From: Nevskia sp.
Lineage (GTDB): Bacteria; Pseudomonadota; Gammaproteobacteria; Nevskiales; Nevskiaceae
Length of the DNA: 64,000 nt
Direction: 5' to 3'
NCBI GenBank assembly: GCA_031291075.1
Contig: JARLJS010000022.1
Location: 19,950 to 83,949, forward strand
Shown here piece by piece: positions 58,238-64,000 of this stretch (the stretch's first letter is position 1; each line of letters starts with the position of its first letter). The position numbers were made by a program, and so were the translations under genes. Below the pieces are notes generated by a model. That model had not been told where the DNA came from and ran no database searches. It saw nothing but the letters and a program-made list of their open reading frames with translations.

Positions 58238-59551
58238 ATGTACGTAAGCAAAGTAATCCTTAATGACATCCGCGGATTTGCCGATCTTGATTTTAATCTT
58301 GTTCGCGAGGACGGCACCTACGCTGGATGGACAGTTTTTACTGGCGATAACGGATCGGGCAAGAGTACCCTGCTGAAGGCGATATCGATCGGCCTAACCG
58401 GCAAAGACACCGCCAGGGCTCTGCAGCCGAGCTTCAATCGTTGGGTCCGTGAAGGTTCCGCCACCAAAAATGCTTCAATTCAACTGGAGATTGTCCGGCG
58501 CTCAGAGGACGACACCTTGGTCTCATCGGGACAGGCCCCTGGTGAACGGTTTCCTGTCAAAATCGTGCTGGCCAACGGCGGCAAAGAGACAACGCTCCAA
58601 GTCGTAGTCCCGCCGAAGAAGCCCAAGAAATATTCGACGCCTGAACGAACGCTATGGTCGCCGGACGCCCGAGGGTGGTTTTCCTGCGGATACGGGCCGT
58701 TTCGCCGTGTCTTTGGAGCATCGTCGGAAGCCATGCAGCAAATGCTGGCCCCTTCAACAGCCCGTTTTGCGACAATGTTTCAGGAAGCGGCCTCGCTTGC
58801 CGAAGCCGACCGCTGGCTGCGTGACCTAAAGTACAAAGAGCTGGAGGATAAGCAGAGGGATAAATCAGCTGAGAGTGAGCCGCTCAGGATTTTGCTTCAG
58901 CTTCTAAAGGACGACTTGATCCCAAAGGGCCTTTCAGTAGATCGAGTCGACTCAGATGGCTTGTGGCTCGTGGACAAGAACGGCGTGCAATTGGCATGGG
59001 CCGAAATGAGCGACGGCTACCGGGCGGCGTTGGCGCTGTTGACCGACATCGTGCGGCACCTGATCAACGCATACGGCTCGGCAGGCCTTACTGCAACGGA
59101 CGATCAGGGACGGCTCTACATCAAACGCAGCGGTGTCGTCCTTATCGACGAAATCGACGCGCACCTGCATCCCACGTGGCAGCGGGAGATTGGTTTCTGG
59201 CTGAAGCGTCATTTTCCGAACATACAATTCTTGGTCACCACGCACAGTCCGATCATCTGCCAGGCAGCCGATTCGAATGGATTATTCGTTTTGCCGGAAC
59301 CAGCTAGCGGCGCTGCACCTCGTGCACTCACCGCTGATGAATACAGGAAGGTCATCGCGTCGCGACCTGACACAATTCTACTGACCGCTGCATTCGGCAT
59401 GCAAAACACCCGTTCGCCAAAAGCGGTGGAAAGTCGAGCGAAGCTGGCTCGACTGGAGGCCAAGAAGCGGGCCGGCGCTGCCCTCAGCGCGGACGAGCGG
59501 CAGATGGAATTGGAACTTCAACTTTTTGCAGCCGCGGGCGAGGATGCCTAA
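58238..59551 (+). CDS. AAA/ABC-type ATPase (Septu PtuA-like)
   Basis: Walker A FTGDNGSGKSTLLKAI; MSDGYRAALALL; Walker B GVVLIDEIDAHLHPTWQREI; H-switch TTHSPIICQ; followed 3 nt later by an HNH gene. Confidence 0.85.
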   Translation: MYVSKVILNDIRGFADLDFNLVREDGTYAGWTVFTGDNGSGKSTLLKAISIGLTGKDTARALQPSFNRWVREGSATKNASIQLEIVRRSEDDTLVSSGQAPGERFPVKIVLANGGKETTLQVVVPPKKPKKYSTPERTLWSPDARGWFSCGYGPFRRVFGASSEAMQQMLAPSTARFATMFQEAASLAEADRWLRDLKYKELEDKQRDKSAESEPLRILLQLLKDDLIPKGLSVDRVDSDGLWLVDKNGVQLAWAEMSDGYRAALALLTDIVRHLINAYGSAGLTATDDQGRLYIKRSGVVLIDEIDAHLHPTWQREIGFWLKRHFPNIQFLVTTHSPIICQAADSNGLFVLPEPASGAAPRALTADEYRKVIASRPDTILLTAAFGMQNTRSPKAVESRAKLARLEAKKRAGAALSADERQMELELQLFAAAGEDA

Positions 59552-59554
59552 CCG

Positions 59555-60292
59555 ATGCGACGAATCACCCGGAGGTCTCTACCAACGGCCACAGAAGGGT
59601 CTTTGAGCGATCGACAACGCAGCGCCGACGTCAAGCGCGCCGCCGGTACGCTGGACGTTCAGTCAGAATGGAAGAACGCCAGAAAGTCAAAGGCACTGAA
59701 GACCGTCCTTGGCACGCTCAGGGAAATGGCCGGAACGCGTGAACGCTGCATGTACTGCGGCGATTCGCACGGCACTGACATCGATCGCTTCTGGCCCAAG
59801 GCGCCCTATCCGGAGCGCCTATTTGTATGGACCAATCTACTTTTGGGCTGCACCGAATGTGGCCGGTTCAAGGGCGAACGTCTGCCGCTGCAAAGCGGAA
59901 TTCCGCAACTGATCGATCCAACCGCTGAGGATCCCTGGGAGCATCTTGACTTCGATCCGGCCACAGGCAATATCGTCGCTCGATTTGATCCGGCAGCAAA
60001 CAACTGGATGAGCAAGGGGACGGAGACGGTGAGACTGCTTCAACTCGACCGCCGGGAAGCGTTAGCGGCCGGCTATCAAAAGACTCACCTTCGCATCAAG
60101 TCGATCATTGCGCAGACCCTACAGGGGCCCGTGCCTCAGGCCGAGACTTTGATACAAGCGTTGCGCGCCGCTGATGACCACGGCCTGTCCGGCTGGTGCT
60201 TCCGGGGAGCCGGCGCGAACGAATCTCCCTTTCGCGAGTTTCGCGCGCAGCACCCCGGAACATGGGCCGTTTGCGAAACAAGCCTGGCGTGA
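59555..60292 (+). CDS. HNH endonuclease (Septu PtuB-like)
   Basis: RCMYCGDSHGTDIDRFWPKAPYPERLFVWTNLLLGCTECGRFKGERLPL (two CxxC pairs around an HNH core). Confidence 0.82.
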   Translation: MRRITRRSLPTATEGSLSDRQRSADVKRAAGTLDVQSEWKNARKSKALKTVLGTLREMAGTRERCMYCGDSHGTDIDRFWPKAPYPERLFVWTNLLLGCTECGRFKGERLPLQSGIPQLIDPTAEDPWEHLDFDPATGNIVARFDPAANNWMSKGTETVRLLQLDRREALAAGYQKTHLRIKSIIAQTLQGPVPQAETLIQALRAADDHGLSGWCFRGAGANESPFREFRAQHPGTWAVCETSLA

Positions 60293-60392: not shown

Positions 60393-60845
60393 ATGTCTAC
60401 GCCCGTCATCGAAATGCGCGAGGCTGAACGCCTGCCACTCACGCCGGCCATTACTGATCGCGTCGAGACCAAGGCGAGTGACACGGGCAAGAAAGTACGG
60501 ATTGAGGAGGTAGAAAGTTCCGGCAACATCTACGCCGACCTTGGATTCCGCTATGCCGAGGCGGTGAAAGTCAAGGCCGGCTTGGTGATGAAAATCGATG
60601 CGATTCTCAAGCAACGTCGACTGACGCAAACCCGCGCGGCAGAAATCACCGGCATCCCGCAGCTATCGGCAATCCTGCGCGGGCACTTCCATAACGTGTC
60701 CGAGCGCAAGCTGCTCGAATGCCTGATCGCGCTTGGGCAGAACGTGAAGATCGTCGTGACGCCGGCACGCCGGGGGCGGGAGGGCACGCTCACAGTGGCG
60801 GCATGGTTGAGGGATAGGCAGGTACGCACCAGCGCAGAAGCGTAA
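60393..60845 (+). CDS. HigA-like/XRE family HTH protein
   Basis: ESSGNIYADLGFRYAEAVKVKAGLVMKIDAILKQRRLTQTRAAEITGIPQLSAILRGHFHNVSERKLLECLIALGQNVKIVV. Confidence 0.82.
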   Translation: MSTPVIEMREAERLPLTPAITDRVETKASDTGKKVRIEEVESSGNIYADLGFRYAEAVKVKAGLVMKIDAILKQRRLTQTRAAEITGIPQLSAILRGHFHNVSERKLLECLIALGQNVKIVVTPARRGREGTLTVAAWLRDRQVRTSAEA

Positions 60846-60856
60846 CCCTAGTCGAC

Positions 60857-63256
60857 ATGAGTGATCCCACGACCGAATTGCTACGACTGCAATCCGAAAA
60901 TGCGCGTCTCATCCGACTTCTGGAACGGAGCGGTATTGATTGGCGCGAACGTCCCGTTGCTGCGGCTACACCGGCAGCAGCACCGAAACCATCGCAGCTT
61001 TCGACCGATGAGAAGGTGACGCTATTCCGTCGCCTGTTCCGTGGCCGGACCGATGTCTACGCATTACGCTGGGAGGGCAAGTCCGGCAAAGCAGGCTATG
61101 CCCCAGCCTGCTCAAACGAATGGAAACCTGGCATCTGCGAGAAGCCGCGCATCAAGTGCGCGGAATGTCCACACAGGCAATTCTTGCCAGTGACCGACCG
61201 CGTCGTCCACGACCATCTGGCGGGCAAGATCACCGTTGGGATCTATCCGCTCTTGCAGGACGACACCTCCCATTTTCTCGCGGTGGACTTCGATGAAGCT
61301 GACTGGCAGGAGGATGCGCAGGCCTTCATGCGCTCATGCGCGGAACTGAAGGCGCCCGCATCGCTGGAAATTTCGCGCTCCGGTAAGGGGGCGCACGCAT
61401 GGATTTTCTTTACGTCCCCGGTTCCGGCACGGGATGCGCGCCGCCTGGGTACCGCGATCATCAGTCACACATGCACCCGCACACGACAGCTGCGGCTCAC
61501 GTCCTATGACCGCCTATTCCCGAACCAGGACACAATGCCCAAGGGAGGTTTCGGCAATCTCATCGCCCTGCCCCTGCAGAAGAAGCCACGCGAAGAGGGG
61601 TTCAGCACTTTCGTGGATGAATGGCTTCAACCCTACCCGGACCAATGGGGCTACCTTGCCACAGTGCGGGCGCTGGCCGCCGATGAACTGGAAGGGATCA
61701 TCGCCAGCGCCACCGGCGGCGGGCATCCGCTAGACGTCACCTTCATCACCGAAGAAGACGAGGCTGAGCCTTGGCGACGGCCGACCCGTATTCCGAAATC
61801 CTTGCCTGGTCCCCTGCCCACAGCGTTGACGGTCACGCTTGCCAACCTGCTCTTCTTCGAGAAGGCGCAACTGCCACAGCCTCTGGCCAATCGCTTGATC
61901 CGGTTAGCCGCGTTCCAGAACCCGGAGTTCTACCGCGCACAAGCGATGCGCTTTAGTGTGTGGGACAAGCCGCGCGTGATCGGTTGCGCCGAAAACTACC
62001 CGAAACACATTGCCCTGCCGCGGGGTTGTCTCGATCCCATGCGCGAGCTTCTGCGCGAGAACAAGATCGCCCTGCACCTACGTGACGAGCGCTGCGCCGG
62101 CGAGCCACTAAACGTGAGCTTCGCCGGAAGCCTTCGGCCAGACCAGGAAGCGGCCGCCAGCGCCATGCTGCAGCACGAATCCGGGGTGCTGTGTGCGCCT
62201 ACAGCATTCGGCAAGACCGTCACCGCGGCGGCGTTGATCGCCAGGCGTGGCGTCAACACGCTGATCCTGGTCCATCGCGCGGAACTGCTGAAACAGTGGA
62301 AGGAACGTCTCAACTCCTTCCTCCAGGCTGGCAAAGAAACTGTTGGCACCATCGGTGCCGGCAAGGCTCGTCCCACCGGCAAGATCGACATTGCGGTGAT
62401 GCAGTCGCTGTCCCGGCAAGGAGAAACAAGCGAGCGGGTGGAGCAATACGGCCATGTGATCGTGGACGAGTGCCACCATCTGTCTGCGGTTTCGTTCGAA
62501 GCGATTCTCAAGCGCGTGAAGGCGAAGTATGTTCTAGGCCTCACGGCCACGCCGTTCCGTCGGGACGGCCAGCAACCAATCATTTTCATGCAGTGCGGGC
62601 CTGTGCGGCACACCGCCTCCAAACCGGCGGGCGCGCCAGCGGTGATGGAAGTCGTACCGCGTCATTTGCATGGCAGCATCGACGTTCCGGCGGAGGCGGG
62701 GATTCAGGATGTGTTCCGACAGCTAGCCGAAGATGGCGCTCGCACGACGACGATTGCCTCCGAAATCGTCAGCTTGGTCAATGCCGGCGGAAAGGTTCTG
62801 GTGCTTACGGAGCGCACAGAGCATTTGGATGCGATCCGAGCGGCACTGGAGCAGCGCATCAGCAATCTGTTCTCGCTGCATGGGCGCATGCCTAAGAAGG
62901 AACGCGCCGCCGCCCTCGCCAATCTGGAAGCTCTCCCGGGCGATGCACCGCGCGTGCTGCTGGCCACTGGAAAACTGATTGGCGAAGGCTTCGATCACCC
63001 GCCGCTAGACACCCTGGTGCTAGCCATGCCGATCTCATGGAAGGGCACACTGCAACAGTACGCGGGCCGCCTACACCGCGAGCACGCAACAAAGATGACA
63101 GTCCGCATCGTCGACTTTGTCGACACCGGCCATGCTGCATTGCAGCGTATGTGGGAGCGACGGCAGAAAGGGTATCGCACCATGGGCTATCAGGTTGTTG
63201 ATGCGAGCCACGGAGAGGTCCTGACGATTCAGGACGATGTGTTTGAAGCCGGATAG
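60857..63256 (+). CDS. TOTE-type archaeo-eukaryotic primase fused to SF2 helicase
   Basis: Primase motifs HFLAVDFDEADW and EISRSGKGAHAWIFF; Cys cluster GICEKPRIKCAECPH; helicase motifs APTAFGKT, IVDECHH, GLTATPFRRDG, QQYAGRLHRE. Confidence 0.88.
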   Translation: MSDPTTELLRLQSENARLIRLLERSGIDWRERPVAAATPAAAPKPSQLSTDEKVTLFRRLFRGRTDVYALRWEGKSGKAGYAPACSNEWKPGICEKPRIKCAECPHRQFLPVTDRVVHDHLAGKITVGIYPLLQDDTSHFLAVDFDEADWQEDAQAFMRSCAELKAPASLEISRSGKGAHAWIFFTSPVPARDARRLGTAIISHTCTRTRQLRLTSYDRLFPNQDTMPKGGFGNLIALPLQKKPREEGFSTFVDEWLQPYPDQWGYLATVRALAADELEGIIASATGGGHPLDVTFITEEDEAEPWRRPTRIPKSLPGPLPTALTVTLANLLFFEKAQLPQPLANRLIRLAAFQNPEFYRAQAMRFSVWDKPRVIGCAENYPKHIALPRGCLDPMRELLRENKIALHLRDERCAGEPLNVSFAGSLRPDQEAAASAMLQHESGVLCAPTAFGKTVTAAALIARRGVNTLILVHRAELLKQWKERLNSFLQAGKETVGTIGAGKARPTGKIDIAVMQSLSRQGETSERVEQYGHVIVDECHHLSAVSFEAILKRVKAKYVLGLTATPFRRDGQQPIIFMQCGPVRHTASKPAGAPAVMEVVPRHLHGSIDVPAEAGIQDVFRQLAEDGARTTTIASEIVSLVNAGGKVLVLTERTEHLDAIRAALEQRISNLFSLHGRMPKKERAAALANLEALPGDAPRVLLATGKLIGEGFDHPPLDTLVLAMPISWKGTLQQYAGRLHREHATKMTVRIVDFVDTGHAALQRMWERRQKGYRTMGYQVVDASHGEVLTIQDDVFEAG

Positions 63257-63534: not shown

Positions 63535-63560
63535 CCCCCCCCCCCCCCCCCCCCCCCCCC
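63535..63560. repeat. 26-nt poly-C homopolymer
   Basis: Direct reading; preceded by GGGGGGGTGC...GCACCCCCCC. Confidence 0.95.
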
Positions 63561-63860: not shown

Positions 63861-64000
63861 CTACCCGAGAAAAGAACCCACGACTACATGCGCCATGGCA
63901 CGACCACGCTGTTTGCCGCGCTGGACATCGCCACCGGCCAGGTCATCGGACAACTGCGCCGGCGCCATCGCGGCAAGGAATTCTTGAAATTCCTTTCACA
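63861..64000 (+). mobile_element. IS630-type transposase fragment, 5'-truncated and running off the window
   Basis: [42 protein letters not shown] matches IS630-type DDE transposases; no matching upstream N-terminus seen. Confidence 0.75.

Follow-up and report, generated by a model that had tools for sequence, protein, structure and literature searches.

The window analysed here is a stretch of 64,000 nucleotides from Nevskia sp. whose right end coincides with the end of its contig. GC content drops from 67–70% over pepA-lptF-lptG-RDD to 55–62% from about 57.5 kb, defining a low-GC island that adjoins lptF-lptG and is seen from its left border. Neither a Septu pair nor a primase-helicase followed lptG in the five relatives examined; in the two nearest ones, the gene at this position encodes a recombinase (Pfam Resolvase) or looks by eye like an integrase gene. 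At the contig end, a run of 26 or more C residues (63535–63560) precedes a fragment (63870–64000) that by eye resembles an IS transposase, although a Pfam search of its open reading frame returned nothing. The genes and features of the island are as follows.

58238–59551, plus strand: PtuA-like ATPase of a Septu pair, 437 residues (PADLOC PDLC00269, 530 bits; alignment)
59555–60292, plus strand: PtuB-like HNH protein, 245 residues (PADLOC PDLC00317, 124 bits; alignments)
59786–59788, plus strand: PtuB codon of Arg78, which is His (the HNH histidine) in 9 of 9 aligned homologues
59861–59863, plus strand: PtuB codon of Gly103, which is Asn (CxxCN) in 8 of 9 aligned homologues
60393–60845, plus strand: toxin-less HigA-like HTH_37 protein, 150 residues (PF13744, 65 bits; homologues mostly behind HigB)
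60657–60665, plus strand: junction of a 6-bp in-frame deletion (2 residues) where the HTH recognition helix begins (protein and DNA alignments)
60857–63256, plus strand: intact TOTE-type primase-helicase, 799 residues (PF22548, PF04851, PF00271; motif conservation)
61010–61693, plus strand: AEP-TOTE primase domain, residues 52–279, including a Cys cluster (residues 85–104; Pfam)
62129–63079, plus strand: XPB/RadD-like SF2 helicase core, residues 425–741 (domain and structure matches)

An intact primase-helicase beside damaged genes

Residues 52–279 of the 799-residue protein matched the AEP-TOTE family (PF22548) with 337 bits (E 8e-101; curated cut-off 27 bits), and this domain was followed by ResIII/DEAD and Helicase_C matches in Pfam, placing an SF2 helicase core at the C-terminal end of the fusion. 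Cys85, Cys94, Cys101, and Cys104 of the Cys cluster, Asp144/Asp146 (motif I), His180 (motif II), and Asp218 (motif III) of the AEP domain, and Lys453/Thr454 (Walker A), the Asp537-Glu-Cys-His box, and Gln734, Arg738, and Arg741 (motif VI) of the helicase were each identical in 81 of 81 aligned homologues, leaving Walker A, DECH, and motif VI intact. A preliminary description of this DNA had reported an HTH gene 11 nt upstream of a TOTE-type protein of this length with archaeo-eukaryotic primase motifs, a Cys cluster, and a DECH helicase, and had proposed to abandon the idea if alignment revealed missing primase catalytic residues. Coordinates, gap, length, motifs, and family assignment all held up, and the catalytic residues are present. 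The domain architecture is already described, and the window protein adds a new member to the known TOTE family, its island being unusual and in part decayed. It departs from the consensus at 15 of 418 conserved columns, compared with a median of 4, and this modest divergence suggests that decay may be starting here too. The nearest solved structure to the AEP domain was the CRISPR-associated Prim-Pol 7nqd (profile E 7.5e-16; Foldseek TM 0.7 of target), and those nearest to the helicase half were XPB and RadD; these matches were used only at the level of domains because the model of the whole protein was poor (mean pLDDT 65). No phage homologue covered 80% or more of the primase-helicase, the best phage matches being to its helicase half.

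The Septu pair, which was missed in the preliminary description, lies directly upstream of the HTH gene and has the right order, PtuA and then PtuB. Alignment with three annotated relatives showed that the Walker A and DEIDAHLH blocks of PtuA are intact. By contrast, the HNH active site of PtuB is broken, with Arg78 replacing the HNH histidine and Gly103 replacing a conserved asparagine. In a PtuB from E. coli, substitution of H75 or N91 in the H-N-H motif abolishes immunity (PMC13096335), and loss of the HNH histidine and of a second conserved residue in the window protein makes it probable that the nuclease, and hence the Septu pair, is dead. As the two substitutions are independent, a single sequencing error is an unlikely cause. 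Among 85 genomes of the order, a single one had PtuA of this kind, and no viral carriers of window-type PtuA were confirmed.

The HTH protein carries a lesion of its own. Its HTH_37 domain is clear (PF13744, E 5e-18), but where the recognition helix begins it reads GIPQ--LSAILRG compared with GLPQPKLSAILRG, and both missing residues are present in 18 of 18 homologues. In the DNA alignment this loss is a clean 6-bp deletion, which would be expected to weaken DNA binding and may have left the protein inactive. A HigB-type toxin adjoins 12 of the 18 aligned homologues, many plasmid matches overlap an annotated RelE/ParE-family toxin gene, and the Nevskia genome also contains a 60%-identical paralogue with its own HigB intact. 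Beside the window gene, including the interval between PtuB and the HTH gene, tblastn detected neither a HigB-type toxin nor a remnant of one, in agreement with the earlier remark that the gene has no toxin neighbour. L102 and L104, both among the closest homologues, likewise lack HigB and adjoin other toxin-antitoxin genes, BrnTA and ParE.

Linkage of the HTH gene to its neighbours

Our sample for co-occurrence comprised 80 homologous loci taken from named genomes, together with relatives from the family, about 90 loci in all; a same-strand gene stands upstream of the primase-helicase at 71 loci. If the HTH protein acted locally to regulate the primase-helicase or as its sensor, with both encoded in one operon, then their linkage should recur; the preliminary description had regarded the two genes as a candidate undescribed system and had itself named lack of conservation of the HTH gene upstream of homologues as grounds for giving it up. 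The window HTH matched a gene adjoining the primase-helicase at just one of the roughly 90 loci (L095), where it belongs to a full HigB-HigA pair; at another (L079), a window-type match lies ~4 kb away. Some HTH antitoxin gene does stand directly upstream at 5 of the 71 loci (L035, L048, L061, L095, and L100), and in the window the two genes share a strand with an 11-nt gap that contains no promoter-like match. However, the toxin is present in 5 of 5 cases (that of L100 is an MqsR-MqsA pair, MqsR being recognized by eye), the HTH state arose independently on the tree, with no fewer than three changes, the genes upstream of most homologues are unrelated, and the window HTH has lost part of its recognition helix. 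We therefore consider a regulatory operon improbable and regard the HTH gene as a chance neighbour rather than a conserved partner. A still larger unit, a single new defence system made up of the Septu pair, the HTH gene, and the primase-helicase, is suggested by the shared strand and short spacing of the four genes, but PtuA and PtuB were matched beside no other primase-helicase homologue, annotated PtuAB relatives occur without the HTH and primase-helicase genes, and both PtuB and the HTH protein carry lesions; we discarded this four-gene Septu-TOTE operon as highly improbable. These comparisons remove a tempting but false pairing of an HTH protein with a primase-helicase and put a testable picture in its place.

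Neighbourhoods of primase-helicase homologues

At the homologous loci, the primase-helicase is the final gene and keeps promiscuous company, following type I restriction, McrC, BrxL (BREX-type), AbiE, HigBA, and SIR2-Ago genes, and most often a 181-residue protein. The latter is encoded directly upstream at 21 of the 71 loci, often overlapping the primase-helicase start (e.g. L044:1619–2164). It is all-helical with a weak likeness to DUF6155 and no PADLOC match, and a fold search gave no match below E 0.001. A YgjP metallopeptidase precedes the primase-helicase at 7 of 71 loci, and McrC, BrxL, AbiEii, RhuM, Fic, HipA, SIR2, NYN, resolvase, and TniQ were among the other upstream genes. In the nearest relative (about 80%; locus L097 of genome G008), the primase-helicase, itself split over two frames, stands behind SIR2-Ago, AbiE, the 181-residue gene, and a gene that is VapC-like by eye, with no HTH gene.

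Type I restriction genes were found near 19 of 80 homologues but in only 1 of 40 control windows, although the flanks averaged 8.6 kb per locus compared with 20 kb for each control; this count is less circular than one over all neighbour families, though it too used queries drawn from the loci themselves. For all families together, the counts were 63 of 80 and 3 of 40, an enrichment with some circularity, as the same loci had served to choose the families. The homologues do sit among defence genes, as expected from the earlier view of this family as conflict-system genes. Five loci also share, close to the primase-helicase, a protein of ~386–450 residues with no assigned function (e.g. L062:5088–6248 and L088:4640–5992); its L062 copy had no Pfam or PADLOC match. 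Homologues occur on conjugative plasmids as well, and at two further loci (L120 and L124) they are flanked by a resolvase and a Tn3 transposase (Escherichia albertii) or adjoin TniQ (Sinorhizobium), placements indicating that transposons carry the gene as cargo too. Within the family, 13 of 58 genomes had any match, and only about seven had a true homologue.

Possible roles of the primase-helicase and comparison with known systems

Taken as a whole, the locus is best explained, in our judgement with somewhat better than even confidence, as a decaying defence island in which an add-on anti-invader primase-helicase is intact and the HTH gene is a relic. The island would have been acquired horizontally beside lptF-lptG, and it now comprises an intact TOTE primase-helicase, a Septu pair whose nuclease is probably dead, and a HigA-like antitoxin that is orphaned and damaged in its recognition helix. 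The antitoxin gene would then regulate no dedicated system and be a remnant of island turnover, and the primase-helicase would be a stand-alone or add-on enzyme against invader DNA. We found no experiments on a TOTE primase-helicase in the open literature searched, and the mechanism that we suggest thus draws throughout on domains, neighbours, and analogy. The XPB/RadD-like motor would engage and open foreign DNA, and the AEP domain would prime and copy the exposed single strand. Invader replication or recombination might be disturbed as a result, or incoming single-stranded DNA might, by a second-strand synthesis step that we infer, be made duplex and so become cleavable by neighbouring nucleases. 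Two published studies offer points of reference. When the primase-polymerase gene of a mobile element in Thermus was deleted, natural transformation increased 100- to 1000-fold and replication of the element was unaffected (PMC7693054). CAPP enzymes are able both to prime and to extend DNA, and helicase-fused non-CRISPR relatives of theirs occur in mobile elements (PMC8211822). More tentatively, it is conceivable that TOTE primase-helicases are general add-on effectors behind many DNA-targeting systems and, with the often-overlapping 181-residue protein, make up a two-gene defence system that has so far gone undescribed. Should the add-on role prove right, a widespread primase-helicase family would gain a function.

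Other roles for the enzyme have to be weighed against this one. Because homologues reside in transposons and on conjugative plasmids, a role in replicating or transposing a mobile element, rather than in defence, is a live rival, and AEP-helicase fusions are common as replication proteins of such elements (PMC5862659). Yet relaxase, integrase, or origin-type partners are not conserved beside the primase-helicase, whose neighbours are mostly restriction and toxin-antitoxin genes, and we rate this role as rather unlikely. The matches of the helicase core to RadD and XPB might instead point to a DNA-repair enzyme of either type that merely resides in islands, but patchy distribution in the family, island location, and changing neighbours make that quite improbable.

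ApsAB, an antiplasmid system, was considered as a relative and rejected: it consists of a helicase-nuclease and an Argonaute-like partner, and the word 'primase' is absent from the ApsAB paper. With known Septu systems, the window pair shares the PtuA and PtuB models and the gene order but differs in the lost HNH histidine and second residue of PtuB. Likewise, the HTH protein resembles the antitoxin of HigB-HigA pairs (PF05973 with PF13744) in its HTH_37 domain and mostly HigB-paired homologues but differs in having no toxin and in lacking two recognition-helix residues. Ppol-Hel of Thermus thermophilus ICETh2 (PMC7693054) also combines a primase-polymerase with a helicase in a mobile element and has an anti-DNA-uptake phenotype; its two proteins come from separate genes, unlike the fused window protein, and it serves here as an analogue. 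The nearest solved AEP folds (7nqd and 7nqf) belong to CAPP, a group with a helicase-fused type and non-CRISPR relatives (PMC8211822). The window protein has an AEP domain of the CAPP kind, but it lies outside a CRISPR-Cas operon, with PtuA, PtuB, and HTH genes as neighbours, carries an SF2 helicase of the XPB/RadD kind, and scores 80 bits against the NCBIfam CAPP model (cut-off 200). Its closest match in kind is the TOTE-type AEP primase-helicases (PF22548), with which it shares the AEP domain and Cys cluster followed by an SF2 helicase, and its identity to many proteobacterial members reaches about 72%; the protein itself is no different from these, and what sets the locus apart is the company of a Septu pair and an orphan HTH gene.
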